A program made the translations under genes and the position numbers. A stretch of DNA of 61,343 nucleotides, taken from positions 1 through 61,343 of the forward strand of contig URCB01000008.1 in NCBI GenBank assembly GCA_900546255.1. The letters run 5' to 3'. Shown in pieces: positions 6,685 to 25,752 of this stretch (the first letter of the stretch is position 1; every line of letters starts with the position of its first letter). Source of the stretch: an uncultured Eubacteriales bacterium. Its GTDB lineage: Bacteria > Bacillota > Clostridia > Oscillospirales > Oscillospiraceae. The notes beneath the pieces were generated by a model. The model was not told the origin of the DNA and ran no database searches. It saw only the letters and a list, made by a program, of their open reading frames with translations.

Positions 6685-7125
6685 TCACCGATGGGAGGAG
6701 AGGTATTCTTTCAGGTAGAGAATGCCTTGGCGGTACCCGTCCAGCCCCAACCCCATGTAGGTCTTCAGGCAGGCCAGCCGGGCATAGGACACCTGGCGAA
6801 AGTCCTCCCGCTTGGACACGTCGGAGATGTGCACCTCCACCGCTGGGATCTGTACCGCCTTCAGGGCGTCCAGGATGGCCACGCTGGTGTGGGTGTAGGC
6901 GGCGGGGTTGATGACGATGCCGTCAAAGGTCCCCAGGGCCTGCTGGATCTTGTCCACAATGGCCCCCTCGTGGTTGGACTGGAAGACCTCCACCCCGATG
7001 CCCTCCTGGGCGCAGGTGTCCTCCACCAGGGCCACCAGGGCGGCGTAGTCCTCCTTGCCGTAGAGGTCGGGCTCCCGGATCCCCAGGAGGTTCAGGTTGG
7101 GCCCGTTAATCACTAAAATGTTCAT
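6685..7125 (-). CDS. aroQ: 3-dehydroquinate dehydratase, type II
   Basis: Converts 3-dehydroquinate to 3-dehydroshikimate (third shikimate-pathway step); type II enzymes are small dodecameric flavodoxin-fold proteins. The N-terminal signature is ILVINGPNLNLLGIREPDLYG with the catalytic Tyr in the flexible lid. The QSNHEG segment (catalytic His region), INPAAYTHTSVAI and EVHISD are all present. The start at 7125 fits the family N terminus; longer readings run into the upstream gene frame. The 146-residue length is typical. Last gene of the operon, overlapping the aroE-aroK fusion by 20 bp. Confidence 0.96.
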   Translation of the reverse strand: MNILVINGPNLNLLGIREPDLYGKEDYAALVALVEDTCAQEGIGVEVFQSNHEGAIVDKIQQALGTFDGIVINPAAYTHTSVAILDALKAVQIPAVEVHISDVSKREDFRQVSYARLACLKTYMGLGLDGYRQGILYLKEYLSSHR

Positions 7126-8338
7126 AGGCTTCCTCCAACTTCTGGGCCACCTTCTCGGCCGGGCCATCGTTGGCCACGGTGATGTCCGCAAAGCGGCGGT
7201 ACATGGGCAGACGGATGGTGTACATGTCCTCCAGGCTCCCCTTCAGGGAGAGGGGGCGCCCCTTCTTCGGCAGTTTGGACAGGGCCCGCTCCAGGAAGAA
7301 AATGGCGCCGTTTTGGTGGAGGTGGGGGTAGTTCTCCGGCCGGGTGACGCACCCCCCGCCGGTGGCAATCACCAGGCCCGAGGATTTCCCCAGCTGGGCC
7401 AGAAGGGCGGTCTCCTCCTTGCGGAAGGCCTCCTCCCCATAGTGGGTGATGTACTCCCCCACGGGCATGTGCAGGACCTTCTCCAGCTCTGCGTCGGTGT
7501 CCACGAAGGGGCGGTCCAGCTGGGCGGCCAGGGCCCGGCCCACGGTGGACTTGCCGCAGCCGGGCATGCCCACCAGGATGCGGTTCTCCTTCCGCCCCCG
7601 GAGGGTGCGGTAGACCTCCTGGGTGCGGATGGCGGAGATGACCTCCCCGGTGAAGAGCTGGGCGGCGCACCGGGCCTGCTCCACCAGCATATACAGCCCC
7701 CCCAGGTTGGGGATGTCCAAGGCCTCCGCCTGCTGGAGCAGGGCGGTGCGGAAGGGGTTGTAGATGAGGTCCAGCACCCCCTCGCAGGCGGGGAACTGGC
7801 GCAGGTCCACCGGGGCGGCGGCGGTGTTGGGATACATGCCCACGGGGGTAGCGTTGACGATGACGGCGGCGTCCTTGTGCCGCTCTAGGTTGTCGTAGTT
7901 GTCCTCGCCGCTGCGGGAGATCACCACGACCTCCCCCGCCCCCAGCTTCCGCAGGATGTACTGGACCGAGAGGCTGGCCCCGCCGGAGCCCAGCACCAGG
8001 CACTTGCGCCCCAGGATGCGCACCCGGCTCTTCCACACCATGGCCTCGAAGCCCGCCGCGTCGGTGTTGTCCCCCAGGAGGGAGCCGTCCAGCTGCTTGA
8101 GGACGGTGTTCACGCTGCCGATGGCGGCGGCGGCCGAGGTGAGGTCGTCGCAGATGTCCATCAGGGTCTTCTTATAGGGGATGGTGACGTTGAGCCCCTG
8201 GAAGTCCCGCACCCGGAGGAAGTCCCCTAGCTTGTCCGGCGGGATCTCAAAGAGCTCGTAGTCGTAGTTTCCGAACAGGGCATGGAGCTCCGGGGAATAG
8301 CTGTGGCCCAGTTTTTCTCCCAACAGTCCGCAGCGCAT
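7106..8338 (-). CDS. aroE-aroK: Fused shikimate dehydrogenase (AroE)-shikimate kinase (AroK)
   Basis: One 410-residue reading frame carries two consecutive shikimate enzymes. Residues 1-250 are AroE: substrate motif GHSYSPELH (11-19), catalytic Lys in IPYKK (56), NTD (91-93), and the NADP site VLGSGGAS near 116. Residues 252-410 are shikimate kinase: Walker A GMPGCGKST (257-265), the shikimate-binding DTD (280-282), GGG in IATGGGCV, and an Arg-rich lid. The linker is only a few residues. The product would reduce dehydroshikimate and phosphorylate the resulting shikimate. It starts within the pheA stop (ATGA overlap). No frameshift is needed to read the fusion. Confidence 0.94.
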   Translation of the reverse strand: MRCGLLGEKLGHSYSPELHALFGNYDYELFEIPPDKLGDFLRVRDFQGLNVTIPYKKTLMDICDDLTSAAAAIGSVNTVLKQLDGSLLGDNTDAAGFEAMVWKSRVRILGRKCLVLGSGGASLSVQYILRKLGAGEVVVISRSGEDNYDNLERHKDAAVIVNATPVGMYPNTAAAPVDLRQFPACEGVLDLIYNPFRTALLQQAEALDIPNLGGLYMLVEQARCAAQLFTGEVISAIRTQEVYRTLRGRKENRILVGMPGCGKSTVGRALAAQLDRPFVDTDAELEKVLHMPVGEYITHYGEEAFRKEETALLAQLGKSSGLVIATGGGCVTRPENYPHLHQNGAIFFLERALSKLPKKGRPLSLKGSLEDMYTIRLPMYRRFADITVANDGPAEKVAQKLEEAYEHFSD

Positions 8339-9486
8339 CAGATCACCTCACTGTAACTTCCGAGATACTGGAACTCCTCGCACACCGAGGACAGGTCATC
8401 CACCATGCGGATGAACTCGTCGGAGTACACCGACGTCTCCAGGTCAAAGTAGAACATGAACTCAAACTCCCGGTCGGGGAGGGGGCGGCTCTCCAGCTTG
8501 ATGAGGTTCAGCCCCAGGGCATAGAACCGGGCCAGGATCTGGTACAGGGAGCCGGGCCGGTGGGGCAGAACCACCATGAGGGAGGTCTTGTCCGCCCCGG
8601 GATAGATCTCCAGCTTCTTGGAGATGCAGATGAACCGGGTGTAGTTGTTGCCCCGGTCCTGGATGTCGGCGGCCAGCCGCTCCAGGCCATAGAGCTCCAC
8701 GCAGCTGTAGGAGCAGATGGCGGCCACGTCGGTGCGCTCGGACTGGGCCACGGCGGCGGCAGCGGCGGCGGTGTTCTCACAGGGGGTGACCTTCACGTCC
8801 TTCCCCAGCTTTTCCAGGTAGCTGGTGCACTGGCTGATGGCCTGGGGGTGGGAGAAGATCTCCTTGACGTCCTCCATCCTGGTGCCCTTCTTGGCCACCA
8901 GGTTGTGGTCGATCTTCAGCCGGGTGGAGCGGACGATCTTGAAGCTGCTGTGGCGGAGCATCAGGTCGTAGATCTGCTTCACCGAGCCGGCGGTGCTGTT
9001 CTCCAGGGGAAGCACGCCGTAGTCGCAGAAGCCGTTCTCAATGGCGGAGAAGACGCTGTCGAAGGAGCCGAAATACATCACCTGGGGGTGCTTGAAGAAC
9101 TTCTCGCAGGCCAGCTGGGAATAGGCCCCCTCCACCCCCTGGCAGGCCACCGTGGCGGAGGGGGGGAAGAGCTTGGGGGTGGTCTCGATGGCGGTCTCGA
9201 TCTCCTTCCGCAGGGCGGAGGGCTGGGGGTTCACCGCGTGCTGGTACCCCCGGCTGATCTCAAAGAGCATGGACCACAGGGCATAGCCGTACTGCGCCAG
9301 CTCCGGGGGGAGCTTGGACGCGATGTCCGCCAGCTTCTCCCGCTCCCGGGCGGGGTCCAGGGTGGGCAGGCCCTGCTCCTTCTTGGCCTGGGCCACCCGG
9401 GTCACCACGTCCATCCGCTGGGCGAAGGCCTTGACCAAGGTGTCGTCGATGGTGTCGATCTCTTTCCGCAGTTGCTCTAAGTTCAT
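8338..9486 (-). CDS. pheA: Bifunctional chorismate mutase / prephenate dehydratase (P-protein)
   Basis: Makes phenylpyruvate from chorismate via prephenate. It has an AroQ-type chorismate mutase (1-85: LRKEIDTIDDTLVKAFAQRM), a prephenate dehydratase (about 110-290, with GAYSQLA, LPLENSTAGSV and the catalytic YTRF at 282-285), and a C-terminal ACT domain (about 300-382) with RPGSLY and the LESRP motif (331-335) that in this family binds phenylalanine for feedback inhibition. So both enzyme-level and, from the upstream leader, transcript-level feedback seem present. The start at 9486 is chosen from homology; it overlaps the aroC stop by 4 bp. Length 382. Confidence 0.96.
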   Translation of the reverse strand: MNLEQLRKEIDTIDDTLVKAFAQRMDVVTRVAQAKKEQGLPTLDPAREREKLADIASKLPPELAQYGYALWSMLFEISRGYQHAVNPQPSALRKEIETAIETTPKLFPPSATVACQGVEGAYSQLACEKFFKHPQVMYFGSFDSVFSAIENGFCDYGVLPLENSTAGSVKQIYDLMLRHSSFKIVRSTRLKIDHNLVAKKGTRMEDVKEIFSHPQAISQCTSYLEKLGKDVKVTPCENTAAAAAAVAQSERTDVAAICSYSCVELYGLERLAADIQDRGNNYTRFICISKKLEIYPGADKTSLMVVLPHRPGSLYQILARFYALGLNLIKLESRPLPDREFEFMFYFDLETSVYSDEFIRMVDDLSSVCEEFQYLGSYSEVI

Positions 9487-10586
9487 GTTCTCTCGCTCCT
9501 TTTCTGCTGCTCCAGCAGCGCGTCGTATACGGCGATGGCCGCCGCCGCCTCCACGCAGGGCACCGCCCGGGGGACGATGCAGGGGTCGTGGCGGCCGTGG
9601 ATCACTAACGTGGTATTCTCCCTCCGGGAGAGGGACACGCTCTCCTGGGGCTGCCCGATGGAGGGGGTGGGTTTCACCGCCGCCCGGAAGAGCAGGGGCA
9701 TGCCATTGGTGATGCCCCCCAGAATCCCCCCGGCGTGGTTGGTACGGGTGCGCACCCGCCCGGCCTGGTCGAAGTAGAAGGGGTCGTTGTTCTGGCTGCC
9801 CCGGAGGGCGGCCGCGGCAAAGCCGGCGCCGAACTCCACCCCTTTCACCGCCGGGATGGCGAAGGCCAGCCGGGCGATGCGGTTCTCCATGCCGTCCAGC
9901 ATGGGGTCCCCCAGGCCGGCGGGCAGGCCCAGGACGGCGCACTCCACCACGCCCCCCAGGGAGTCCTGTTCCTCCCGGGCCTGGGCGATGGCGGCCTGCA
10001 TGGCCTGGCCCGCCCCGTCGTCCAGGACGGGGAAGGGTTTCCCCCCCGGGGCCAGCAGGGCCTCCCCGGTGAGGTCCACCGGGTCATAGCCGGCGTCGGG
10101 AATCCCCCCCACGGCGGCGATGTGGGCCCCCACCAGGATGCCTTTCCGGGCCAGGATCTGCTTGCAGATCCCCCCGGCGATGCACAGGGGGGCGGTGAGC
10201 CGCCCGGAGAAGTGGCCGCCCCCCGCCACGTCCTGAAAGCCGCCGTACTTCACCTGGGCGGTGTAGTCGGCGTGGCCGGGGCGGGGGATGTCCCGGAGGT
10301 TGTCATAGTCCCCCGACCGGGTGTTGGTGTTGCGGATGAGGGCGGCCAGGGGGGCGCCGCAGGTGTACCCCCCCGCCAGGCCGGAGAGGATCTCCGGCCG
10401 GTCCCCCTCCTTCCGGGTGGTGGCCCAGGGGCCCCGGCCCGGGGCCCGACGGTCCAGGAAGCTCTGCAGCTCCTCCAGGTCCACCCGCTCTCCGGCGGGC
10501 AAGCCGTCCACCGTCACCCCGATGGCCGGGGCGTGGGATTGGCCAAAGATGGAAACGGTCAGCTGACCGTGGTAAATACTGCTCAT
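9483..10586 (-). CDS. aroC: Chorismate synthase
   Basis: Removes phosphate from 5-enolpyruvylshikimate 3-phosphate to give chorismate; needs reduced FMN. Family signatures seen are the N-terminal FGQSHAPAIGVTVDGLPAG, RPGHADYT in the middle, RGSQNNDPFY, and the C-terminal RHDPCIVPRAVP. The 367-residue length is normal. AGGACATTACC precedes the ATG. It lies 76 bp after aroA, the largest gap inside the operon. Confidence 0.97.
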   Translation of the reverse strand: MSSIYHGQLTVSIFGQSHAPAIGVTVDGLPAGERVDLEELQSFLDRRAPGRGPWATTRKEGDRPEILSGLAGGYTCGAPLAALIRNTNTRSGDYDNLRDIPRPGHADYTAQVKYGGFQDVAGGGHFSGRLTAPLCIAGGICKQILARKGILVGAHIAAVGGIPDAGYDPVDLTGEALLAPGGKPFPVLDDGAGQAMQAAIAQAREEQDSLGGVVECAVLGLPAGLGDPMLDGMENRIARLAFAIPAVKGVEFGAGFAAAALRGSQNNDPFYFDQAGRVRTRTNHAGGILGGITNGMPLLFRAAVKPTPSIGQPQESVSLSRRENTTLVIHGRHDPCIVPRAVPCVEAAAAIAVYDALLEQQKRSERT

Positions 10587-10662: not shown

Positions 10663-11940
10663 TCACGGCTCCAGGAAATCCTCCACTTTTTTCCCCAGGG
10701 CCCGCAGGTCCCGCCAGAATGTGGGGTAGGACTTCTCCACCGCCTGGGCCCCGGTGATGGTCACCGGCCCCTCGCAGGCGCCGGAGGCCACAGCGGCGGC
10801 CATGGCGATGCGGTGGTCCCCGGCGGCGTCCGCCCGGCCCCCCGGCAGGCGGGGCCGGCCCTGGATCACCAGGCCGTCCTCCGTCACCGTCACGTCCCCT
10901 CCCAGGGCCCGGAGGGCCCGGGCGGTGGTCTCCAGCCGGTCGGACTCCTTCAGCCGCAGCCGGGCCGCCCCGGTGATGGTGGTGGTACCGGGGACAGCGG
11001 CGGCCACTGCCGCCAGGACGGGGACCAGGTCGGGGATGTCCCGGGCATCGATTTCCACCGGGCGCAGGGGGCCGCGGAAGGCGGTCACCCGGTCCCCGGT
11101 GGCCCGCATTCGGGCCCCCATCCGGGCCAGGACGGCGCACACCGCCTTGTCCCCCTGGGGGGAGGCCAGGTCCAGGCCGGTGACGGTGACGCTCTCCCCC
11201 CCCAGGGCCCCCAGGCACAGCCAGGGGGCGGCGTTGGACCAGTCCCCCTCCACCTGGACCAGGGCCGGGCCCCGGTAGGGGTGGGGGGAAACCGTCCAGC
11301 CCGTCTCCCGCTCCCGGGGAGCCACCCCGAACCGGGCCAGGGCCCGGAGGGTGAGGTCGATGTAACTGGCGGACTCCCGGGGGCCCGTCACGGCGAGGGT
11401 GCTCTTCCCCGCCAGCAGGGGCAGAGCGAAGAGCATCCCGGAGATGAACTGGGAGGACACATCCCCCGGCAGGGTGTATTCCCCCGGCCGGAGCTGGCCC
11501 TGGATGGTGAGCACGTTGTCCCGGGGGCGGAGATGGATCTCGCATCCCCCGGCCTCCAGCTGCTCCGTCAGGGGCCCCATGGGCCGCTGGGCCAGCCGGC
11601 CGGCCAGGTGGAAGGTGGCCTGGGCCCCCAGGGCCCCCGCCACCGGCAGGAGGAAGCGGAGGGTGGAGCCGCTCTCCCCGCAGTCCAAGTGGCAGGGGGC
11701 GGGGGCGTCCCCCCGGTCCAGGGGGGTCACGTCATACCCCCCCGCCCGGGGGCGGATGTGGGCCCCCAGGGCGTTCAGGCACCGGACGGTGGCCTCGATG
11801 TCCTGGGAGGTCTGGGGGCAGACCACCTGGACGGGGCGCTGCCCCAGGGCGGCGCAGATCAGCAGCCGGTGGGCCGCCGACTTGGAGGGCACGGCGGCCA
11901 GGGTGCCCTCGGCACAGCCGGGCTGAATGGTGACGGTCAT
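10663..11940 (-). CDS. aroA: 3-phosphoshikimate 1-carboxyvinyltransferase (EPSP synthase)
   Basis: Transfers the enolpyruvyl group of PEP to shikimate 3-phosphate. Visible motifs are PSKSAAHRLLICAAL near 18 (substrate Lys and Arg), LDCGESGSTLRFLLP, and RLRLKESDR plus GDHRIAMA in the second half. The GESGSTLRF loop departs from the NAGTAMRP sequence of glyphosate-sensitive class I enzymes, so reduced inhibitor sensitivity is possible but unproved. Start 11940 overlaps the aroB stop (ATGA). Length 425 residues. Confidence 0.96.
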   Translation of the reverse strand: MTVTIQPGCAEGTLAAVPSKSAAHRLLICAALGQRPVQVVCPQTSQDIEATVRCLNALGAHIRPRAGGYDVTPLDRGDAPAPCHLDCGESGSTLRFLLPVAGALGAQATFHLAGRLAQRPMGPLTEQLEAGGCEIHLRPRDNVLTIQGQLRPGEYTLPGDVSSQFISGMLFALPLLAGKSTLAVTGPRESASYIDLTLRALARFGVAPRERETGWTVSPHPYRGPALVQVEGDWSNAAPWLCLGALGGESVTVTGLDLASPQGDKAVCAVLARMGARMRATGDRVTAFRGPLRPVEIDARDIPDLVPVLAAVAAAVPGTTTITGAARLRLKESDRLETTARALRALGGDVTVTEDGLVIQGRPRLPGGRADAAGDHRIAMAAAVASGACEGPVTITGAQAVEKSYPTFWRDLRALGKKVEDFLEP

Positions 11941-12995
11941 TGCCCCAACCCCCTTTCGATCCAGGTCTTCAGCTCTCCCACCGGAACGGGGACCAGCTGG
12001 CTGCGTCCCCAGGCGGTGGGGACCACCAGGGAGATGGTGTCCCCCGCCCGCTTCTTGTCGGAGAGGGTCTTTTCGTAGAGGTCGGCGGCGGCGTAGTCGG
12101 TGGCGGTGGGCAGGTGGTACCGGGCCAGCAAGGCCTCCAGCCGGGGCAGGACCTCCGGGGGACACAGGCCGGCGGCCACCGCCCCCCGGGTCACCAGGGT
12201 CATGCCGATGGCCACCGCCTTGCCGTGGGAGATCTGGTAGCCGCTGCAGGCCTCCACCCCGTGGCCGATGGTGTGGCCCAGGTTCAGCAGCTGCCGGGCC
12301 CCGGTGTCAAACTCGTCCTGCTCCACCAGGTCCCGCTTGTGGGCGATGCACCGGGCGGTGACCCCCTCCGGGTCGGCCCGGAGGTCGATGGTCTCCAGGG
12401 TGTTCAGCAGGCCGGCGTCCCCGATCATGCCGTACTTGATGACCTCGGCGCAGCCGTCGGCAAAGTCGGCCTCGGGGAGGGTGTCCAGGGTGTCCAGGTC
12501 GCAGAGGACGGCCCGGGGCTGGTAGAAGGCCCCCGCCAGGTTCTTGCCGTGTTCCAGGTCGATGGCGGTCTTGCCCCCCACGGAGGCGTCCACCGCCGCC
12601 AACAGGGTGGTGGGCAGCTGGAGGAAGGAGACCCCCCGGAGGTAGGTGGCGGCGGCAAACCCGGTGAGGTCCCCCACCACGCCGCCCCCCAGGGCGATGA
12701 GCCCGTCGGCCCGGGTGAGGTGGGCCTGGGCCAGGAACTCCAGCAGGTTCAGGTAGGTGGCGCCGTTCTTATGCGCCTCCCCAGCGGGAAAGACGAAGGG
12801 GTGCACCTGGAACCCCGCCCCCTCCAGGCTGGCCTTGACCTGGTCCAGGTAGAGGGGGGCCACATGGGTGTCGGAGACCACCGCCGCGGTGCGGCCCTTC
12901 CACAGTCCCGCGGCGGTCTGGCCCACCGAGGCCAGCAGCCCCCGGCCAATGGTGACGTCGTAGGCGCGGGAAGCGGTGACGTGTACCCTGGTCAT
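11937..12995 (-). CDS. aroB: 3-dehydroquinate synthase
   Basis: Cyclises DAHP to 3-dehydroquinate; an NAD- and metal-dependent enzyme. Seen in order are the NAD-binding stretch ALGGGVVGDLTGFAAATYLRG, the PTTLLAAVDASVGGKTAID motif and the metal ligand region NLGHTIGHGVEA. The start at 12995 is chosen because it gives the usual N terminus and overlaps the tyrA stop by 4 bp; upstream in-frame sequence is out-of-frame tyrA. Length 352. Confidence 0.97.
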   Translation of the reverse strand: MTRVHVTASRAYDVTIGRGLLASVGQTAAGLWKGRTAAVVSDTHVAPLYLDQVKASLEGAGFQVHPFVFPAGEAHKNGATYLNLLEFLAQAHLTRADGLIALGGGVVGDLTGFAAATYLRGVSFLQLPTTLLAAVDASVGGKTAIDLEHGKNLAGAFYQPRAVLCDLDTLDTLPEADFADGCAEVIKYGMIGDAGLLNTLETIDLRADPEGVTARCIAHKRDLVEQDEFDTGARQLLNLGHTIGHGVEACSGYQISHGKAVAIGMTLVTRGAVAAGLCPPEVLPRLEALLARYHLPTATDYAAADLYEKTLSDKKRAGDTISLVVPTAWGRSQLVPVPVGELKTWIERGLGQ

Positions 12996-13828
12996 TTCCC
13001 GTCCACCTCCTCCTTGATCCGGCGGCCCTCGTCCAGCAGGCGGCAGAGGGTGGGGAAGTCCTCGTCCTCCAGGGCCTGCTTGTACTGGTTCAAATTGCCG
13101 ATGAGGGTGTCCAGCTCGAAGAGGAGGTTCTTTTTGTTCTCCAGAAAGAGCTCCGCCCACATGGAGGGGTTGAGCCAAGCCACCCGGGTCAGGTCCTTGT
13201 AGCTGCCGGCGGAGAAGCCGTCGTGCTCCCGGGCGGTGGGGCTTTTGATGTAGGCGTTGGAGATCACATGGGCCATCTGGGAGGTGAAGGCGATGCGCTG
13301 GTCGTGCTTGTCCGCCGTGGTGATGGACACCCGGCCGAAGCCCACCGGCTCCAGGAGCTTTTTCGCCCGGTCCAGCAGACGGATGTCGTCAAAGGTCGGG
13401 GGCACCAGGACCATGGGGGCCCCGTCAAAGAGGTCGGCCCGGCTGTACTTAAAGCCGGAGAAGTGGGTCCCCGCCATGGGGTGGCCCCCCAGGAAGGGGA
13501 AGCCATACTGTTCCGCCAGGGGGAAGACCTTCTGGCACACCTTCTCCTTGGTGCCGGCGCAGTCGATGACCATGGTGTGGGGCTGGATCTTGGGCGCCAG
13601 CCGCTCCATGTGCTCCACCACCGCCTCGGGATAGGTGGCCAGGAGGAGGAGGTCCAGCTCCCCCAGCCGCTCCTCCGTGAGGGGGGCGTGGATGGCCTGG
13701 GCGATCTGGGCAAACTCGGTGATGGACCGGTCCGTGTCCCACCCCAGGACGGTGACGGAGGGGTCCCGGCGGTAGGCCTTGGCCAGGGACCCGCCGATGA
13801 GCCCTAAGCCGATGATGCCGACGGTCAT
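12992..13828 (-). CDS. tyrA: Prephenate dehydrogenase (TyrA family)
   Basis: Oxidative decarboxylation of prephenate to 4-hydroxyphenylpyruvate on the tyrosine branch. The NAD-binding N terminus is VGIIGLGLIGGSLAKAY with an acidic residue after the second strand (GWDTD). The substrate-site segment GGHPMAGTHFSGF and the helical dimerisation half with SQMAHVISNA follow. At 278 residues it lacks the extra C-terminal ACT domain present in many Gram-positive TyrA proteins, so direct tyrosine feedback is less certain. Overlaps aroF by 4 bp. Confidence 0.94.
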   Translation of the reverse strand: MTVGIIGLGLIGGSLAKAYRRDPSVTVLGWDTDRSITEFAQIAQAIHAPLTEERLGELDLLLLATYPEAVVEHMERLAPKIQPHTMVIDCAGTKEKVCQKVFPLAEQYGFPFLGGHPMAGTHFSGFKYSRADLFDGAPMVLVPPTFDDIRLLDRAKKLLEPVGFGRVSITTADKHDQRIAFTSQMAHVISNAYIKSPTAREHDGFSAGSYKDLTRVAWLNPSMWAELFLENKKNLLFELDTLIGNLNQYKQALEDEDFPTLCRLLDEGRRIKEEVDGK

Positions 13829-14832
13829 TCCTGCATCGCCTCCCGAATCCGGAAGATTTTCCGGGCGGTCTGGGCAAACTGCTCCGGGGTGAGGGACTGG
13901 GCCCCGTCACACAGGGCGTGGGGGGGATCGTTGTGGACCTCGATCATGATCCCGTCTGCCCCGGCAGCGGCGGCGGCCATGGCCATGGGCTCCACCAGGT
14001 AGGCGTGGCCGGTGCCGTGGCTGGGGTCCACCACCACCGGCAGGTGGGTCAGCCCCTTCAGGACGGGCACCACCGACAGGTCCAGGGTGTTCCGGGTGTA
14101 GGTGGACTCATAGGTGCGGATGCCCCGCTCACAGAGGATCACGTTCTCGTTGCCGTTGGCCATGATGTACTCCGCGCTCATGAGGAGTTCCTTGATGGTC
14201 CCCGCCAGGCCCCGCTTGAGGAGGATGGGCTTGTTGGTCTTGCCCAGCTCCTTGAGCATGTCGAAGTTCTGGGTGTTCCGGGCCCCCACCTGGATGACGT
14301 CCACCTCCTCAAAGAGGTCCAGGTTGCGGATGTCCATGAGCTCGGTGACGATGGGCAGGCCGGTGGCCTTCTTGGCCTCCAGCAGCAGGCGGATGCCCTC
14401 GGCCCCCAGGCCCTGGAAGTCGTAGGGGGAGGTGCGGGGCTTGAAGGCGCCCCCCCGGAGGAAGGCCGCCCCGGCCTTCTTCACCTCCTGGGCCACGAAG
14501 GTGATCTGCTCCTCGGTCTCCACGGAGCAGGGGCCGGCGATGAGGGCAAAGTGCCCCCCGCCGATGGCGGCGGGGCCGGCCTGGATGACGGAATCCTCGG
14601 GATGGAACTTCCGGTTGACCGCCTTAAAGGGGTCGGACACCCGGGTGACAGACTCCACAATGTCCAGGCTCTGGATCATCTCCATGTCCACCTTGGCGGT
14701 GTTGCCGATGAGGCCCAGGACGGTCTGGTACTCCCCCTTGGAGACGTGGACCCCTAAATTCTGCTCCTCCAGCCAGTGGATGAGGTGCTGGGTGCGTTCC
14801 GGCGAAGCGCCGGGCTTCAAGACTGCGATCAT
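13825..14832 (-). CDS. aroF: 3-deoxy-7-phosphoheptulonate (DAHP) synthase with N-terminal regulatory domain
   Basis: First committed step of aromatic synthesis, PEP plus erythrose 4-phosphate to DAHP. The catalytic barrel begins at about 93 with [11 protein letters not shown] and contains [21 protein letters not shown] and the late DPSHGTGH. The first 80 residues form the ferredoxin-like/ACT-type domain of class I-beta enzymes such as that of Thermotoga, where it mediates inhibition by Tyr or Phe. First structural gene of the operon; GAAAGGAG precedes the ATG region. The whole operon lies behind the leader described at 14888-15058. Confidence 0.96.
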
Positions 14833-14887: not shown

Positions 14888-14925
14888 AAAATAAAAACGC
14901 CACACAGATGGAAATCTGTGTGGCG
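14888..14925 (-). terminator. Attenuator terminator upstream of aroF
   Basis: 12-bp perfect stem CGCCACACAGAT/ATCTGTGTGGCG (14914-14925 with 14898-14909), 4-nt loop, followed on the minus strand by TTTTTATTTT. It lies between the leader peptide stop and aroF, so it would end transcription before the operon. The ascending arm can instead pair with the segment at 14965-14976 just after the leader stop codon (AATTTGTGcTGG with CCACACAGATT: 11 pairs, one bulge, one G-U), an antiterminator. Confidence 0.88.
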
Positions 14926-14980
14926 TGGGTGATCTTCGTTTCGGAAAGACCCCATGAATATTATCCAGCACAAATTGCCA

Positions 14981-15058
14981 TTACCCTATTCCCTTGGAGG
15001 TCATAAAGTAATAGTAGGTAAAGGCGAACTGGTTGTGGCTAACGATAACGGACTTCAT
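14981..15058 (-). CDS. Aromatic amino acid leader peptide (25 aa) of a transcription attenuator
   Basis: A 26-codon reading frame starts with ATG 10 bp or less after AGGAGGACC and encodes MKSVIVSHNQ followed by FAFTYYYF and a short tail. Six of eight residues at positions 11-18 are Phe or Tyr (three each), exactly the products of the operon it precedes. The stop codon lies 4 nt before the proposed antiterminator strand. By analogy with pheL and trpL leaders, a ribosome stalled at Phe or Tyr codons would leave that strand free and allow read-through; a ribosome at the stop codon would mask it. This smORF is too short for routine gene calling. Confidence 0.88.
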   Translation of the reverse strand: MKSVIVSHNQFAFTYYYFMTSKGIG

Positions 15059-15093
15059 GGGAAGGTCCTCCTGCTATACGGTTTACCATGTAC

Positions 15094-15122
15094 ATTCTAT
15101 CACCCTTTCCCTACCCCGTCAA
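15094..15122 (-). promoter_or_regulatory. Promoter of the aromatic operon leader
   Basis: Minus strand TTGACG (15117-15122), 17 bp, TAGAAT (15094-15099). It lies about 35 bp before the leader peptide start and is the only good promoter before the operon. Confidence 0.75.
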
Positions 15123-15199: not shown

Positions 15200-15228
15200 T
15201 TGAACCAAAGCGCCCATCGTAGTATCCT
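15200..15228 (+). promoter_or_regulatory. Promoter of the SdpI-like gene
   Basis: TTGAAC (15200-15205), 17 bp, TATCCT (15223-15228), about 32 bp before the chosen start. The region 15123-15199 between this and the aro promoter is A+T rich and has no other feature I can support. Confidence 0.5.
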
Positions 15229-15259
15229 AGAAACGACCATTGCAGAAAGGATGCTTTTT

Positions 15260-15631
15260 ATGGAAACAGGATTTTGGATTTTTATGCTGGTGATGGACTT
15301 TCTGCTCCCCCTGATCATGGTGGTGTTCGGCAAACTCTTCCAGCACTGCCCCGAGGAGATCAATTCGGTCTTCGGCTACCGCACCCGCCGGTCCATGGCC
15401 AGTCAAGAGGCCTGGAACTTTGCCCACCACGCCTGCGGCAAACTCTGGTTCCGCTGGGGTCTGGTGCTGCTGCCGGTGACGGTGGGGCTGATGCTCCTGG
15501 TGTGGGGGCGGGACACCGGCACCGTGGGCCTCTTCGGCGCCGTGGTGATGGTGGTGCAGCTGGCGGTGCTGTTGCTGTCTGTGGCGGTGGTGGAAAACGC
15601 GTTGAAGCGGACCTTTGGTGAGGGCAGGTAG
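15260..15631 (+). CDS. SdpI-family integral membrane protein
   Basis: A 123-residue membrane protein with three hydrophobic stretches (about 3-25, 68-90, 95-115). The segment FGYRTRRSMASQEAWNFAHHACGKLW matches the conserved cytoplasmic loop of SdpI-type immunity proteins (GYRT-RSM-N--W--A). In Bacillus subtilis SdpI protects against the SdpC toxin, but most family members stand alone and are of unknown role; no toxin gene is seen here. The start at 15260 is chosen for AAAGGATG upstream and because it precedes the first membrane segment directly. Confidence 0.75.
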   Translation: METGFWIFMLVMDFLLPLIMVVFGKLFQHCPEEINSVFGYRTRRSMASQEAWNFAHHACGKLWFRWGLVLLPVTVGLMLLVWGRDTGTVGLFGAVVMVVQLAVLLLSVAVVENALKRTFGEGR

Positions 15632-19390: not shown

Positions 19391-20047
19391 TCAGGTCATC
19401 TTCTCCTGCTTCACCTTTTTGTCGATGACGTGCCGGGAGGCCAGCTCGTCCCGGACCTCCTCCAGGCTGATGCCCAGCTGGAGCATGAGGACCATCACAT
19501 GGTAGGCCAGGTCGGCGATCTCGTAGATGGTCTCCTTCTTGTCCTCGGCCTTGCCGGCGATGATGACTTCGGTGGACTCCTCCCCCACCTTTTTGAGGAT
19601 CTTGTCGATGCCCTTCTCAAAGAGGTAGGAGGTGTAGGACCCCTCCTTGGGACTCTCCTTCCGGCCCTGGAGCATGTCCATGAGGCCCTGGAGGGTGAAG
19701 GCGGTGTTCTCCTCGCTCTCGAACAGGGGGTTGTGGAAGCAGGACTCGGCGCCGGTGTGGCAGGCGGGCCCCTCCTTGTTCACCCGGACCACCAGGGCAT
19801 CGTAGTCGCAGTCGGCGGTGATGTCGATGATGTGCTGCACCGCCCCGGAGGTCTCCCCCTTCCGCCACAGCTCCTGGCGGGAGCGGCTCCAGAAGTAGGT
19901 GCGCTCCTCCTTGATGGAGATGTCCAGGCTCTCCTTGTTCATGTAGGCCAGGGTAAGCACCTGGCCGGTGGTCCCATCCACCACGATGGCGGGGATGAGG
20001 CCCTTCTCGTCAAACTTCAGTTGTTCCATGGTCTGCTTGTCCAGCAT
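19391..20047 (-). CDS. hisIE: Phosphoribosyl-AMP cyclohydrolase / phosphoribosyl-ATP pyrophosphatase
   Basis: Fused HisI-HisE catalysing steps three and two of histidine synthesis. The HisI domain (1-115) shows LAYMNKESL, FWSRSRQELWRKGE and the zinc cysteines in CDYDA and ACHTGAESCFHN. The HisE domain (about 120-218) shows YTSYLFEKGIDKILKKVGEE and the acidic helix AEDKKETIYEIADLAYH. The start at 20047 is preferred over 20065 because AAGGAG lies 8 bp before it. It follows hisF by 21 bp. Confidence 0.95.
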   Translation of the reverse strand: MLDKQTMEQLKFDEKGLIPAIVVDGTTGQVLTLAYMNKESLDISIKEERTYFWSRSRQELWRKGETSGAVQHIIDITADCDYDALVVRVNKEGPACHTGAESCFHNPLFESEENTAFTLQGLMDMLQGRKESPKEGSYTSYLFEKGIDKILKKVGEESTEVIIAGKAEDKKETIYEIADLAYHVMVLMLQLGISLEEVRDELASRHVIDKKVKQEKMT

Positions 20048-20068
20048 GGCTTTTCTCCTTCCCAATCG

Positions 20069-20824
20069 TCAGCGCACGGGGATGCTGTGGTCCCGCAGGG
20101 TCTGTTTCAGGTGGGGGATGGCAATCTCCCCAAAGTGGAACACCGAGGCCGCCAGCCCCGCGTCCACCCCAGGCAGGGTCTGGAAGAGGTCCACAAAGTC
20201 CTGGACCTTCCCCGCGCCCCCGGAGGCGATCACCGGGACCTTCACCGCCTGGCACACGGCGGCCAGCATCTCCAGGTCAAAACCCCCTTTGACCCCGTCG
20301 GTGTCGATGGAGTTGACCACCACTTCCCCGGCGCCCAGGTCCACGCAGTGGCGGATCCAGCCGATGGCCTCCATGCCCGTGTCGTCCCGGCCCCCCCGGG
20401 CAAAGACCCGGAACTGGCCGTCCACCCGCTTGACGTCTGCCGACAGGACCACACACTGGCTGCCGTAGCGCAGGGCGGCCTGGCGGATGAGGTCGGGGTT
20501 GCGGATAGCCCCGGAGTTGACGCTGACCTTGTCGGCCCCGCATTTCAGGACCCGGTCAAAGTCGTCCAGGGTGTTGATGCCCCCGCCCACGGTCAGGGGG
20601 ATGAAGACCCGGCTGGCCGTCTGGCGCAGGATGTCGGTGAAGAGGCTGCGGCCCTCGGCGGAGGCGGTGATGTCGTAAAAGACCAGCTCGTCGGCCCCGC
20701 TCTTGGTGTAGTACTCCGCCAGCTCCACCGGGGAGTTCACGTCGTGAAGGCCCTGGAAGTTGACCCCCTTCACCACCCGGCCGTCCTTCACGTCCAGGCA
20801 GGGGATGATGCGTTTGGTGATCAT
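20069..20824 (-). CDS. hisF: Imidazole glycerol phosphate synthase, cyclase subunit
   Basis: With HisH it converts PRFAR plus ammonia to imidazole glycerol phosphate and AICAR. The beta-alpha barrel carries IIPCLDVKDGRVVKGVNF (catalytic Asp), FYDITAS, GGGINTLDDF, the second catalytic Asp in SIDTDGVKGGFD, and IASGGAGK. The 251-residue length is exact for the family. Overlaps hisA by 4 bp. Confidence 0.98.
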   Translation of the reverse strand: MITKRIIPCLDVKDGRVVKGVNFQGLHDVNSPVELAEYYTKSGADELVFYDITASAEGRSLFTDILRQTASRVFIPLTVGGGINTLDDFDRVLKCGADKVSVNSGAIRNPDLIRQAALRYGSQCVVLSADVKRVDGQFRVFARGGRDDTGMEAIGWIRHCVDLGAGEVVVNSIDTDGVKGGFDLEMLAAVCQAVKVPVIASGGAGKVQDFVDLFQTLPGVDAGLAASVFHFGEIAIPHLKQTLRDHSIPVR

Positions 20825-21546
20825 AGCTGCGCTCCTTTCCCCAGGGCAATGGCCTGGGCCAGGTCGATGGCCCCGGTGTAATAGGCCTTGCCGATGATGG
20901 CCCCGGCCACCCCGGCCTCCTTCAGGGCCCGGATGTCCTCCAGGGAGGACACGCCTCCCGAGGCGATGATGTCCATAGAATACCGCTGGGCCAGGGTGCG
21001 GTAGAGGGCCCGGTTGGTCCCCTCCATGGCCCCGTCCCGGGAGATGTCGGTGCAGATCATGGTGCGCACCCCCAGGGCCTGCATCTGGTCAAAGAAGGTC
21101 TCCCAGGTGTTCTGGCTGGTCTCCAGCCAGCCTTTGATGGCCACCTTGCCGTCCTTCAGATCGGCCCCCACGGCGATCTTGTCGCCGTACTGGGCCACCG
21201 CCTGGGCGGTGAAGTCCGGGTCGGTGACGGCGGCGGTGCCCAAAATCACCCGGCTGGCCCCGGCCTCCAGGTACCGGCGGACGGTGTCCATACTGCGGAT
21301 GCCGCCCCCCACCTCCACGAAGAGGCCGGTCTGGGCGGCGATCCGTTCGATGGTGGGCAGGTTGGTGGTCTGGCCGGTCTTGGCCCCCTCCAGGTCCACC
21401 AGGTGGAGGTGGGTGGCCCCGGCGGCCTCAAACTGCGCCACGGTGTGCAGGGGGTCGGCGTCGTAGACCGTCATCTGGTTGTAGTCCCCCTGGTACAGGC
21501 GGACGGCCTGGCCCCCGAAGAGGTCGATGGCAGGCAGAATGATCAT
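20821..21546 (-). CDS. hisA: ProFAR isomerase (HisA)
   Basis: Isomerises the N'-phosphoribosylformimino intermediate before HisF. A barrel paralogous to HisF: N-terminal ILPAIDLFGGQAVRL, HLVDLEGAK, VGGGIRSMDTV, the second Asp in CTDISRDGAMEG and IASGGVSS. Length 241, normal. Lies 1 bp after the hisH stop. Confidence 0.97.
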   Translation of the reverse strand: MIILPAIDLFGGQAVRLYQGDYNQMTVYDADPLHTVAQFEAAGATHLHLVDLEGAKTGQTTNLPTIERIAAQTGLFVEVGGGIRSMDTVRRYLEAGASRVILGTAAVTDPDFTAQAVAQYGDKIAVGADLKDGKVAIKGWLETSQNTWETFFDQMQALGVRTMICTDISRDGAMEGTNRALYRTLAQRYSMDIIASGGVSSLEDIRALKEAGVAGAIIGKAYYTGAIDLAQAIALGKGAQL

Positions 21547-21547
21547 C

Positions 21548-22168
21548 TCACCAGCTCCCTTCGCAGAAGGTTTTCAGAATGGCCAGGCCCACGTCCCCGC
21601 TCTTTTCCGGGTGGAACTGGCAGCCCATCACGTTGCCCCTGGCCACGGCGGCGGTGAGCTGGGCCCCGTACTCTGTGGTGGCGATCACCGCCGGGGCGCA
21701 GTCGGTGGCGTAGTAGGAGTGGACGAAGTAGACGCAGTCCCCCTCCTCCACCGAGGCCAGCAGGGGGTGGCGCACCCCCCCGGGGAAGTGGAGGGCGTTC
21801 CATCCGATGTGGGGAATCTTATAGTCGGCGGGGATGACCCCCTCCATGGGGACCACCTTCCCCGGGATCAGGCCTAAGCCCTTCCAGGTGCCAAACTCGT
21901 GGCTCTCCTCAAAGAGCAGCTGCATCCCCAGGCAGATGCCCATGAGGGGCTTGCCGGCGGCGGCCTCCTCCTGGATGACCCGGTCCAGCCCGGTCTGGCG
22001 GAGCTTGGCCGCCGCGTCGGCGAAGGCCCCCACCCCCGGCAGGAAGAGCTTATCCGCCTGGCGGAGGAGGGCCGGGTCGCCGGTGACCACCGGCTGCTGG
22101 CCGATGGCCTCCAAGGAACGGCAGAGGGAGAAGAGGTTCCCCACGCCGTAATCAATCACTGCAATCAT
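21548..22168 (-). CDS. hisH: Imidazole glycerol phosphate synthase, glutamine amidotransferase subunit
   Basis: Class I glutamine amidotransferase that feeds ammonia to HisF. The nucleophile Cys is in GICLGMQLLF, with the oxyanion PGVGAF upstream and the His-Glu pair in CQFHPEKSG. The start at 22168 gives the canonical MIAVIDYGVGNLFS N terminus and overlaps the hisB stop by 4 bp; in-frame sequence further upstream belongs to hisB in another frame. Length 206. Confidence 0.97.
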   Translation of the reverse strand: MIAVIDYGVGNLFSLCRSLEAIGQQPVVTGDPALLRQADKLFLPGVGAFADAAAKLRQTGLDRVIQEEAAAGKPLMGICLGMQLLFEESHEFGTWKGLGLIPGKVVPMEGVIPADYKIPHIGWNALHFPGGVRHPLLASVEEGDCVYFVHSYYATDCAPAVIATTEYGAQLTAAVARGNVMGCQFHPEKSGDVGLAILKTFCEGSW

Positions 22169-22749
22169 ACGAGACTTCCTTTCGTGGAGGGGATGTCGTC
22201 GTCCCCCGTGAGGGCCACCGCCTGCTTCAGGCTGCGGCCGGCGGCCTTGAAGACCCCCTCCAGGATGTGGTGGCTGTTCTCCCCCGCCACCTTTCGCAGG
22301 TGGAGGGTGCAGCCGGCTTTCCGGGTGAAGGCCAGCCAAAACTCCTTGGCCAGCTCTGTGTCAAAGGTGCCCACCTTGGCCGTGGGCAGGGCCACGTCCC
22401 AGCAGAGCATCCCCCGGCCGGAGAGGTCCACCGCCCCCAGGATGAGGGTCTCATCCATGGGCAGCAGGCTCTGGCCGAAGCGCTCCACCCCCCGCATCTC
22501 CCCCAGGGCCTGGGCGAAGGCCTGCCCCAGGCAGATGCCCACGTCCTCCACGGTGTGGTGGTCGTCCACCCAGGTGTCCCCGGTGCAGGTGACGGTGAGG
22601 TCAAACTTCCCGTGGCGGGCAAAGCCGGTGAGCATGTGGTCGAAGAACCCCACCCCGGTGCGGATGTCATAGCGGCCGGTGCCGTCTAGGTTCACGGTGA
22701 GGGTGATGTCGGTCTCCCCGGTTTTCCGGGTGACTTGGGCTTGGCGCAT
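22165..22749 (-). CDS. hisB: Imidazoleglycerol-phosphate dehydratase
   Basis: Dehydrates imidazole glycerol phosphate. The two manganese-binding histidine clusters are seen as FFDHMLTGFARHG with DDHHTVEDVG, and again in ENSHHILEGVFKA. At 194 residues it is the monofunctional dehydratase, without the histidinol-phosphatase domain of the enterobacterial fusion. No histidinol phosphatase gene is present in this operon, so that step must be encoded elsewhere. Confidence 0.97.
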   Translation of the reverse strand: MRQAQVTRKTGETDITLTVNLDGTGRYDIRTGVGFFDHMLTGFARHGKFDLTVTCTGDTWVDDHHTVEDVGICLGQAFAQALGEMRGVERFGQSLLPMDETLILGAVDLSGRGMLCWDVALPTAKVGTFDTELAKEFWLAFTRKAGCTLHLRKVAGENSHHILEGVFKAAGRSLKQAVALTGDDDIPSTKGSLV

Positions 22750-23813
22750 CAGGCTCCCTCCTCCTTTAAAATGGTCTGGACCACCGCCAGGAAGGCCTCC
22801 ATCTCTGCCGGGGTGCCGATGGTCACCCGGTTGTAGGCGGCGATGGCGGGGTCGGAGAAGTGGCGGATCAGAACCCCCTTCTCCTTGCACTTGCGGTACA
22901 GGGTCTCCCCGGCCACCTTGGGGTGGGTCACGAAGAGGAAGTTGGCCTGGGAGTCCGGCAGGGTGAAGCCCAGGGCCCGGAGGGCCTGGGCAGTCTTCTC
23001 CCGGGTGGCCATGATCTCCCGGGCCTTCTCCCGGAAGTACCCGTCGGAGTCCACCGCCGCCTGGCCCAGCTTCAGGGTGAGGCGGTTGACGTTGTAGGGG
23101 TTGGTGGAGTACTTGAGCTTCTCCAGGTCCTGGATCAGGGCACGGCTGCCCAGGGCGAAGCCCAGCCGGGCCCCGGCCATGGACCGGGACTTGGAATAGG
23201 TCATCACCACCAGGAGGTTTTCATACCTCTGGAGCAGGGGCACGGCGGAGTCCGCCCCGAAGTCCACGTAGGCCTCGTCCACCACCACCACATGGTCGGG
23301 GTTGGCGGCCACGATGGCCTCCACCTGGTCCAAGGGCAGGGCGATCCCGGTGGGGGCGTTGGGGTTGGGGAAGACGGTGAGTTTCCCCTTCCCCTGCATC
23401 CCCGCCACGTCCAGGGTGAAGTCCTCCCGGAGGGGGACGGTCTCATAGGCCACTCCGTGGAGGTTGGCAAACACGGGGTAAAAGCTGTAAGTCAGGGCGG
23501 GGAACACCGCCCCGTCGGCCCCGAAAGCCATGAAGGCGAAGTTCAAGATATCGTCCGACCCGTTGGAGAGGAAGACCTGCCCCGCCTCCACCCCGTAGAG
23601 TTCTGCCAGCTTGGCCCGCAGGGCGGTGCCCTCCGGGTCGGAGTACAGCCGCAGGTCGGCCAGGTCCTGCTCCGTCAGGGCCGCCAGCACCGCCGGGGCG
23701 GGGGGGTAGGGGGACTCATTGGTGTTGAGTTTGATGTACTGCCGGTCCCGGGGCTGCTCCCCGGGGGTGTACGCCTCCAGCCCGGCGTACTGGGGGTGGA
23801 GGAAGCGGCTCAT
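22749..23813 (-). CDS. hisC: Histidinol-phosphate aminotransferase
   Basis: PLP-dependent fold-type I aminotransferase. Visible are the N-terminal KLNTNESPYPPAPAV, FLSNGSDDILNFAF, NPNAPTG, the DEAYVDF strand, and the Schiff-base lysine in MTYSKSRSMAGARLGF. Length 354. It overlaps both hisB (1 bp) and hisD (4 bp). Confidence 0.97.
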   Translation of the reverse strand: MSRFLHPQYAGLEAYTPGEQPRDRQYIKLNTNESPYPPAPAVLAALTEQDLADLRLYSDPEGTALRAKLAELYGVEAGQVFLSNGSDDILNFAFMAFGADGAVFPALTYSFYPVFANLHGVAYETVPLREDFTLDVAGMQGKGKLTVFPNPNAPTGIALPLDQVEAIVAANPDHVVVVDEAYVDFGADSAVPLLQRYENLLVVMTYSKSRSMAGARLGFALGSRALIQDLEKLKYSTNPYNVNRLTLKLGQAAVDSDGYFREKAREIMATREKTAQALRALGFTLPDSQANFLFVTHPKVAGETLYRKCKEKGVLIRHFSDPAIAAYNRVTIGTPAEMEAFLAVVQTILKEEGA

Positions 23814-25105
23814 TTCGTCCCCTCCGCCACCTTGGGGTCAAAGCGGATGTCCACGCTGCGGGCGTGGCCGGTGAGGCCCTCCTTCTTGGCGAAGGTGGAC
23901 ACGGAGAACTGGGCCTTCTCCAGGGCGGGCTTGGTGTAGTAGGTGTACTGCATCTTCTTCACAAAGTCATCCACCGACAGGGGGCTGGAGAACCGGGCGG
24001 TGCCGCTGGTGGGCAGGGTGTGGTTGGGTCCGGCAAAGTAGTCCCCCAGGGCCTCGGGGCAGTTGCGGCCCAGGAAGATGGAGCCGGCGTTGCGGATCCT
24101 GTCCAGGTAGTCGAAGGGCTGGTCCACGCAGACCTCCAGGTGCTCCGGGGCGATCTCGTTGGCGATGTCCACCGCGGTGTCCAGGGACTGGGCCACAATG
24201 ATCTTGCCGTTGCGGTCGATGGAGGCCCGGGCAATCTCCTGCCGCTTGAGCTTGGGCAGCTGCTCCTCAATGGCCCCCTGGACCGCCAGGGCCAGGTCCT
24301 CACTGTCGGTGACCAGCACCGCCGAGGCGTTCTTGTCGTGCTCGGCCTGGCTGAGGAGGTCTGCCGCCACGATTTGGGGGTTGCAGGCCCCGTCGGCGAT
24401 CACCAAGATCTCACTGGGGCCGGCCACCATGTCGATGCCCACCTGGCCAAAGACCTGCTTCTTGGCCTCGGCCACGAACTGGTTGCCGGGGCCCACGATC
24501 TTGTCCACCTTGGGCACGCTCTCGGTGCCGTAGGCCAGGGCGGCCACAGCCTGGGCGCCCCCCACCCGGAAGACCCGGTCCACCCCGCAGACCCGGGCGG
24601 CGGCCAGGATGTTGGGGGGGATCTTCCCGTCCTTCCCCGGCGGGGTGACCATGCACAGCTCCTTCACCCCGGCCAGCTTGGCGGGGATGGCGTTCATCAG
24701 AACGCTGGAGGGGTAGGCCGCCGTGCCCCCGGGGACGTACAGCCCCACCCGGGCCAGGGGGACCACCTTCTGGCCCATGAGGATGCCCTCCTCGTCGTTG
24801 ACCAAAAAGCTGTTGCGCACCTGGTGCTGGTGGAAGGCGGCGATCCGCTCGGCAGCCCGGTAGAGGATGTCCACCAGGGTGGGGTCGGCAGCCCGGAAAC
24901 CCTCCTCCAGGGCCCCGGCGCCCACCTCCACGGTGGCAATCTCCACCCCGTCAAATTCCTGGGTGTATTTCTTTAAGGCGGCGTCTCCGTGGGCCTTCAC
25001 GTCGGCCAGGATGGCCCGGACGGGTTCGGCCACAGAGTCCACCGGGTCCTCCCGGGCGAAGATTTTGGCCCGGTCGGTGTCCGCTTCTCTCAGAATGGGT
25101 ATCAT
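23810..25105 (-). CDS. hisD: Histidinol dehydrogenase
   Basis: Zinc enzyme oxidising histidinol to histidine in two NAD-dependent steps. Motifs include [20 protein letters not shown], the catalytic region around [16 protein letters not shown], and NAGSIFLG with the late [14 protein letters not shown]. 431 residues, full length. AGAAGAAATG start overlapping the hisG stop. Confidence 0.98.
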
Positions 25106-25752
25106 TTCTTCTCTGCCTCCTTGGCGGCCACCTGGGCGGTAAGGCCCTCGTAGAGGGTCTGGATGGCCTCGTGCTTAAACTTGAAACTCACCTTATTGGC
25201 GATGAGCCGGGCGCTGATGGGGACGATGGTCTCGATGGGGGTCAGGTCGTTCTCCCGGAGGGTGGTCCCCGTCTCCACGATGTCCACGATGACGTCGGTG
25301 AGGTCTAAGATCGGTGCGATCTCAATGGACCCGTGGAGGCGGATGATGTCAATGTCCCGGCTGCGGGCGGCGTAGTAGGTCCGGGTGATGTTGGGAAACT
25401 CCGTGGCCACCCGGAGGGTGCGGTCCGGGTCGTCCCGGAAGCCGTTCTTGGCGGCCACGCACATCCGGCACTTGCCCACGTTCAGGTCCAGCAGCTCGTA
25501 GATGTCCGGGCCGTACTCCAGGAGGATGTCCTTCCCGGCCACCCCCACGTCGGCGGCCCCCCGCTCCACGTACACCGGCACGTCGGAGGGTTTTACCCAG
25601 AAGTACCGCACCCCGGCCTCCGGGTTTTCAAAGATCAGCTTCCGCTTGGGGTCCAGCAGTTCCTCGCAGGGAAAACCTGCCTGGGCGAACATGGCGTACA
25701 CCCGCTCCCCCAGCCGGCCCTTGGGCAGGGCCACGTTGAGAAATTCCTTCAT
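25102..25752 (-). CDS. hisG: ATP phosphoribosyltransferase, short form catalytic subunit
   Basis: First step of histidine synthesis, ATP plus PRPP. At 216 residues it is the short form, which lacks the C-terminal regulatory domain and needs HisZ. It shows ALPKGRLGE at the N terminus, the GAADVGVAGKDILLE segment, and the PRPP loop DIVETGTTLREN. The partner hisZ lies directly upstream with a 4-bp overlap, which fits the hetero-octamer model. Confidence 0.97.
   Translation of the reverse strand: MKEFLNVALPKGRLGERVYAMFAQAGFPCEELLDPKRKLIFENPEAGVRYFWVKPSDVPVYVERGAADVGVAGKDILLEYGPDIYELLDLNVGKCRMCVAAKNGFRDDPDRTLRVATEFPNITRTYYAARSRDIDIIRLHGSIEIAPILDLTDVIVDIVETGTTLRENDLTPIETIVPISARLIANKVSFKFKHEAIQTLYEGLTAQVAAKEAEKK

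Follow-up and report, generated by a model that had tools for sequence, protein, structure and literature searches.

The question raised by this locus is how the expression of a complete set of aromatic amino acid synthesis genes may be controlled by the short region preceding it. The window, i.e. the whole stretch of 61,343 nucleotides analysed here, carries on its minus strand an operon starting with aroF, and between the promoter-like site and aroF a small ORF rich in Phe and Tyr codons is followed by a terminator hairpin. A first-pass annotation, made from the sequence alone, had read this region as a ribosome-mediated attenuator responding to Phe and Tyr, and the comparative tests described below (conservation of the aromatic run, swap test and pair changes) support that reading. 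On sequence comparison and modelling, a ribosome-mediated transcription attenuator sensing the charging of Phe- and Tyr-tRNA is very probably the best explanation of the locus.

Anatomy of the leader and gene content of the operon

The elements initially listed, namely a promoter-like site, AGGAGG, a 25-residue ORF containing FAFTYYYF, its stop codon, a terminator with U-tract and aroF, are all present, in this order, on the minus strand (Table 1). A translatable short ORF with a Shine-Dalgarno sequence is thereby found, at the sequence level, before the first gene. In the promoter-like site the -35 element TTGACG occupies positions 15122-15117 and the -10 element TAGAAT positions 15099-15094, with a 17-nt spacer; a TAAAAT-like -10 element is seen by eye at the same place in close relatives, and the leader RNA probably starts near 15087. 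The aromatic codon run extends from F11 to F18 (15028-15005) and the leader stop codon is located at 14983-14981.

Table 1. Features of the leader and of the aromatic operon. Positions are those of the window; for each feature the strand and the evidence on which the assignment is based are reported.
Feature	Position	Strand	Basis
Promoter-like site TTGACG-17-TAGAAT, TG before the -10	15094..15122	-	match to consensus
Shine-Dalgarno sequence AGGAGG, 8 nt 5' of the leader ATG	15067..15072	-	sequence
Leader peptide ORF MKSVIVSHNQFAFTYYYFMTSKGIG, 25 codons plus stop	14981..15058	-	sequence; aromatic ORFs in homologous regions
Strand 1, coding part (early codons and Tyr/Phe codons), pairs with strand 2	15005..15058	-	fold, swap test, helix changes
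Strand 2, GTAATGGC then AATTTGTGCTGG, overlaps the leader stop	14965..14984	-	pairing tests, modelled folds
Hairpin of the intrinsic terminator (strands 3 and 4), stem of 13 pairs, loop of 4, then U-tract TTTTATTTTG	14897..14926	-	scan; two-sided changes
aroF, 3-deoxy-7-phosphoheptulonate synthase, opens the operon	13825..14832	-	NF006421, 473.6 bits (cut-off 335)
tyrA, prephenate dehydrogenase	12992..13828	-	best match NF006307, 164.8 bits, below the equivalog cut-off of 295
aroB, 3-dehydroquinate synthase, start inferred	11937..12995	-	TIGR01357, 342.1 bits, above cut-off
aroA, 3-phosphoshikimate 1-carboxyvinyltransferase, start inferred	10663..11940	-	TIGR01356, 343.2 bits, above cut-off
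aroC, chorismate synthase	9483..10586	-	NF003793, 388 bits, above cut-off
pheA, chorismate mutase and prephenate dehydratase, start inferred	8338..9486	-	NF008865, 228.4 bits, above cut-off
aroE-aroK fusion, shikimate dehydrogenase and shikimate kinase	7106..8338	-	PF08501 and PF01202, above cut-off
aroQ, type II 3-dehydroquinate dehydratase, supplies the remaining pathway step	6685..7125	-	PF01220, 185.8 bits

Strand 2 has two alternative partners, either strand 1 or the 5' arm of the terminator. Its AATTTGTGCTGG portion (14976-14965) begins 4 nt past the leader stop, and the 11 pairs that it had been said to form with the ascending arm of the terminator were confirmed, one bulged C and one G-U pair being included. 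The terminator stood as well, its proposed length of 12 bp being corrected to 13 pairs by the scan. Because the adjacent ORF (15200-15631) is encoded on the plus strand, the terminator belongs to the leader and not to an upstream gene transcribed in the same direction. Another inverted repeat, rich in G+C (GCGCCGTCC / GGGCGGCGT, at about 14884-14861 on the minus strand) is seen by eye between the U-tract and the ribosome site of aroF; by eye, it differs among relatives.

The operon had been described as complete, with nine enzyme activities. Its completeness held, and the count rose to ten by the addition of aroQ, located directly 3' of aroE-aroK; the ten encoded activities presumably cover all steps from DAHP synthase to both prephenate-derived products. 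Within pheA the chorismate mutase domain falls below its own cut-off (TIGR01805, 55.9 bits), and the aroE-aroK fusion is below the NCBIfam equivalog cut-offs.

Conservation of the leader ORF and chance expectation

Two AroF searches provided at least 110 loci, one of them being limited to the best 80 among the matches listed, for a total of 104 distinct aroF upstream regions including that of the window. An aromatic ORF (cluster of at least 5) combined with a terminator was found in 85 of these 104 regions. The clustered codons are those for amino acids made by the operon: the window has FAFTYYYF and all 85 leaders contain both Phe and Tyr, while Trp occurs in nine. Both the Phe/Tyr run and the pairings, which the first-pass annotation had singled out for checking in relatives, turned out to be conserved (85 of 104 regions; swap test; 80-row alignment). 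Named carriers include Sporobacter termitidis (L077; Oscillospiraceae), Emergencia timonensis (L026) and Aminicella lysinilytica (L024), the last two from the Anaerovoracaceae. Within the same genus the leader pattern is present once per genome in 12 of 16 genomes, and the reversed pattern used as control in none of the 16; diverged leaders (L087, L085) were found in two other genomes (G005, G012), and the remaining two (G004, G015) are only 54% and 72% complete. Among the loci without leader, aroF lies, by eye, close behind a pheA-like reading frame in three (L009, L012, L054), and one, L056, has a T-box instead. Three contigs labelled Treponema or Treponemataceae (L042, L044, L064) also show an aromatic ORF before aroF.

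The significance of the single elements was evaluated by comparison with shuffled sequences. A promoter consensus scan returned one site, with 0.9 expected by chance, and a terminator scan one site, with 2.6 expected in shuffles; neither is in excess, and both scans were dropped as independent evidence, the counts being at shuffle level. The intrinsic terminator between the ORF and aroF is supported instead by its site and by the two-sided pair changes described below. The fold of the leader RNA is more stable than that of its shuffles (z = -4.9). As for the ORF, a Shine-Dalgarno-like site followed by a reading frame with at least 6 aromatic codons in 8 was obtained in one of 3000 dinucleotide shuffles of the 300-nt upstream region of the window. 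Of the aroF upstream regions, 102 offer a full 300 nt; a Shine-Dalgarno-like site with an ORF having at least 5 aromatic codons in 8 was found in 68 of them, against 14 of 2040 shuffles and one of 102 antisense sequences. Aromatic residues account for a fraction of 0.87 of the cluster read in the ORF frame, compared with 0.19 and 0.20 for the two alternative frames, a contrast biased upward since the cluster was chosen by its in-frame density.

Outside the aromatic run the leader peptides are variable, Phe and Tyr replace each other, and neither length nor stop position is constant. These features bear on the possibility of a nascent-chain arrest of the TnaC type, in which translation would be stalled by the peptide itself, or by free Phe or Tyr bound to the ribosome, and not by uncharged tRNA. 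The conserved aromatic core of the peptide leader would agree with such an arrest; arrest peptides, however, usually retain fixed residues, and the observed variation, together with a geometry which fits stalling on the aromatic codons (see below), makes this explanation quite improbable.

Alternative pairings of the leader RNA

If the locus is an attenuator, strand 2 should be matched, within each species, to both of its partners. A swap test was performed on 89 loci, in which the energy of pairing between a strand and its own partner was compared to that obtained with partners from other species, after removal of row and column means. The own 2:3 pairing is better by 3.2 kcal/mol (z -11) and the own 1:2 pairing by 5.6 kcal/mol (z -14), in both cases with none of 5000 permutations as good. 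Two control pairings, 1:3 and reversed strand 2, gave null results (z -0.8 and -0.7; 990 and 1280 of 5000 permutations as good), and the outcome was unchanged in a thinned set of 82 loci. The own partner ranks in the best tenth at 28 of 89 loci for 2:3 and 37 of 89 for 1:2, compared with 7 and 12 of 89 in the two controls, so that the signal is clear when summed, not locus by locus. In four loci of the set (L085, L034, L068, L109) the cluster reaches just 4; the terminators of L086 and L071 were set by hand, the automatic choice being wrong, while those of L068 and L103, although doubtful, were kept. The two mutually exclusive pairings, 1:2 and 2:3, have evolved in a coupled manner and, with the controls null, appear to be under selection.

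In an 80-row alignment (A2, fitted to the structure of model R1, and with pair counts which for this reason lean towards that structure) 94.8% of the cells are paired in the apical 1:2 stem and in the terminator, a value reached by none of 500 shuffles; 290 two-sided changes were counted, against 78 in shuffles, and 19 of 21 pairs are changed on both sides. Two-sided changes affect all 10 modelled pairs of the terminator in the 80 leaders. Model R1 matched, at E<=1e-3, 43 of the 72 loci outside its building set (74 of 111 sources searched). A count of 2:3 pairs on the fixed columns of another alignment, A1, was dropped, the register varying by eye between groups (e.g. L011 and the window).

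A stretch, GTAATAG..ATTTGTGCTGC, is strongly conserved 3' of the aromatic codons. Such a conservation might point to a small-molecule riboswitch, or to a leader bound by a TRAP- or repressor-like protein, controlling the terminator with the ORF being incidental. Judged from the sequence comparison, its two alternative pairings explain this stretch; in addition the ORF is far above shuffle level and the leader has no match to any Rfam family up to E=1, so that this second explanation appears slightly less probable than nascent-chain arrest.

Position of the ribosome and modelled decision

For an attenuator, the position of a ribosome on the leader would decide which pairing forms. In the 89 loci, strand 2 begins at a median distance of 17 nt past the last aromatic codon. 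In 76 of 89 loci a ribosome modelled at the stop codon shares 5 nt or more with strand 2, while one at the last aromatic codon does so in 6; for the first stops of the other two frames, overlaps were found in 40 and 48. When stop distances were permuted among loci, the mean overlap was 68.4 and 6 of 2000 permutations reached 76. Since permuted stops keep most of the overlap, the placement of the stop is a family-wide feature, to which a modest locus-specific part is added; in this sense the stop is positioned in favour of coverage of strand 2 by a terminating ribosome.

The probability of 2:3 pairing was estimated by a folding model, in which the RNA is considered before arm 4 is made and everything up to the leading edge of the ribosome is removed. 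For the window the predicted P(2:3) is 0.16 with free RNA, 0.78-0.85 with a stalled ribosome and 0.20 with a ribosome at the stop; the corresponding medians over the 89 loci are 0.24, 0.72-0.75 and 0.37. Values above 0.5 were obtained at 84 of 89 loci in the stalled state, 23 in the free state and 29 at the stop, and the full switch pattern, at the threshold of 0.5, is predicted for 44 loci and incomplete in 45. At equilibrium the terminator wins in all ribosome states (medians 0.93-0.95), so the switch would have to be kinetic; the control exerted by the trp attenuator is also kinetic.

The incomplete loci of the model and the chance-level result of the terminator scan, taken alone, would suit a simpler arrangement, where a constitutive weak terminator accompanies a small protein-coding gene and no switching takes place. 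The coupled evolution of 1:2 and 2:3, on the other hand, needs an alternative structure, and the probability assigned to this arrangement is lower again than that of a riboswitch or protein-bound leader.

Under the preferred reading, i.e. tRNA-charging attenuation, the following sequence of events may be proposed. When Phe and Tyr are plentiful, the ribosome would reach the leader stop and cover strand 2; the terminator (3:4) would then form, and RNA polymerase would stop before aroF. When charged Phe- or Tyr-tRNA is scarce, the ribosome would wait on the FAFTYYYF codons, disrupting 1:2; strand 2, left free, would pair with the 5' arm of the terminator (2:3) before arm 4 is made, and transcription would run on into the Phe and Tyr synthesis genes. 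If the leader carried no ribosome, 1:2 would form and the terminator would win.

Relation to known leaders

The pheL and trpL attenuators of Enterobacteria consist of a leader ORF with regulatory codons, of mutually exclusive 1:2, 2:3 and 3:4 pairings and of a terminator before a biosynthetic operon. The clostridial leader has the same components; unlike pheL and trpL, it carries both Phe and Tyr codons and precedes DAHP synthase and the whole pathway, and it lacks an Rfam match, as neither Phe_leader nor Trp_leader matched it at the gathering score or up to E=1.

Similar candidates have been published. According to the portion of PMC8632094 available, the uORFC-13-1 motif is a Phe-codon uORF located directly before aroF in Acholeplasma, beside a terminator, for which attenuation was proposed; its 24 representatives come from Acholeplasma and environmental DNA only, and Phe is emphasised. 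Compared on this description only, the two share a uORF and a terminator before aroF, whereas the leader described here is clostridial and features Phe and Tyr. In Fig. 6b of PMC6429828, as far as covered by the text available, two uORF candidates with Phe and Tyr are placed before genes of shikimate metabolism, and may represent the present family or another one.

Other leaders of Firmicutes, also taken from partial sources, use amino-acid-specific codons in the same way, for amino acids and genes other than those of the aroF leader: a leader-peptide attenuator was proposed for the His leader of hisZ/hisS in bacilli (PMC2965389), the hisZ leader of Clostridium difficile and bacilli is cited in PMC4833913, and a Leu-rich attenuator peptide is reported for Staphylococcus aureus (PMC5794164). 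A family of the present type was not found in the portions available of PMC11109978 and PMC8040213. Beyond the candidates cited above, no description of a clostridial Phe/Tyr aroF leader family was found in the literature searched, and a prior description is possible. The kind of system is already known.

T-boxes and tryptophan synthesis

T-boxes sense tRNA charging via transcription attenuation by binding the tRNA directly, and do not involve an ORF. They share the sensing role proposed for the aroF leader and occur in the same genomes, being detected in 16 of 16 genomes of the genus; in the window itself a T-box-like leader precedes leuA, encoding 2-isopropylmalate synthase (28234-28409, plus strand; 64.4 bits, the gathering score being 93, E 2.7e-12). 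A T-box could accordingly be suspected at the aromatic operon too, and two distant aroF genes do have one: Rfam searches on 20 loci that lacked a strict leader call and on 20 class-wide loci each revealed a single T-box, upstream of aroF, in L056 (2129-2394) and in L200 (235-502) respectively. At the aroF leader of the window, in contrast, RF00230 has no match up to E=1, and control of this operon by a T-box is the least probable of the explanations considered, close to negligible. In L056 and L200, both distant relatives, the control system appears to have been exchanged at the same gene.

TrpA is absent from 12 of the 16 genomes of the genus (G001-G016), several of which are incomplete; the nearest one (G001) and 7 of the 10 good-quality genomes are among the 12. 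The chorismate-binding domain of TrpE type is absent from 5 of 9. Since TrpA is missing in 12 of 16, the operon probably feeds only Phe and Tyr in this genus, which fits a sensor for Phe and Tyr only, on the basis of kin genomes and not of the genome of the window. The two absences also suggest Trp auxotrophy in much of the genus. Where Trp genes were found, G004, G007 and G008 each have a T-box on the same strand as the chorismate-binding domain, about 0.7 kb ahead of it, and in G012 a T-box precedes TrpA by about 5.7 kb; among the matches listed, none lies near the domain found in G006 or near the second one in G008. Phe/Tyr control by leader peptide seems therefore to coexist with T-boxes acting on Leu synthesis and, in some members of the genus, on Trp synthesis.

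A histidine biosynthesis cluster is located nearby in the window (19391-26858, minus strand), the genes other than hisD and hisG being assigned by eye. No Rfam leader was matched there at E<=0.1, and the upstream stretch read shows, by eye, no His-rich ORF.

Distribution of the leader in Clostridia

A class-wide AroF search, extended to 118 genomes, gave a match in 84, and 70 upstream regions from 69 genomes were read. The leader rule was passed by 37 of the 70 and not by 33; the rule, applied to the last 350 nt, scores the cluster with a bonus for Shine-Dalgarno and ATG, the shuffle rates given above being those of the ORF criterion on 300 nt. Several regions just under threshold look alike by eye. 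The first-pass annotation had regarded a dual Phe/Tyr leader as unusual, which is only partly right: such leaders are common among the sampled clostridial aroF genes (85 of 104; 37 of 70), and similar uORF candidates at shikimate genes are reported in the portions available of PMC6429828 and PMC8632094.

Searches by model were also performed. R1 matched at least 24 of 291 genomes of the class at E<=0.01 and R2 at least 27 of 291 at E<=1e-4, counts which are probably too low, the number of candidates scored per genome being limited to 9-10; the aroF-anchored figure of 37 out of 70 is a better estimate of prevalence. Phylum-wide, R2 matched 3 of 299 genomes, two of them labelled outside class Clostridia. 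Among 27 R1 loci, 18 have a DAHP synthase gene, in all 18 cases with an aromatic ORF; of the nine without it, one (L153) is convincing and the remaining eight seem to be weak or false matches. All 13 loci newly fetched with R2 have both DAHP synthase and an aromatic ORF, and DAHP synthase is lacking in two earlier loci that R2 also matched, L153 and L144. L144, matched by both R1 and R2, is located before what looks by eye like a glutamate dehydrogenase ORF. L153, from class Clostridia, contains at 1501-1660 an aromatic leader of the same type, with a promoter-like site (by eye) and a terminator, followed by a paaK-like gene for phenylacetate-CoA ligase (TIGR02155, 560.3 bits, below the cut-off of 646.3).

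The balance inclines slightly in favour of a single ancestral family of Phe/Tyr attenuators, without an Rfam entry, which would be common at the entry gene of the shikimate pathway across much of Clostridia, where T-boxes serve the synthesis of Leu and, where present, Trp, and which would also have moved to the paaK-like gene of L153. If this is true, the textbook mechanism of E. coli type would represent a normal control of aromatic amino acid synthesis in Clostridia, beside T-boxes in the same cells, and would offer a ready model, as well as a marker for the aromatic amino acids that a strain senses and makes. It would also raise the question of why ribosome stalling is used for Phe and Tyr, and T-boxes for Leu and, where present, Trp. 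Distinct leaders, encoding long peptides with ends resembling FYFSFGYFxC, precede aroF in six loci (L183, L185, L186, L189, L190, L197) from another part of the class.
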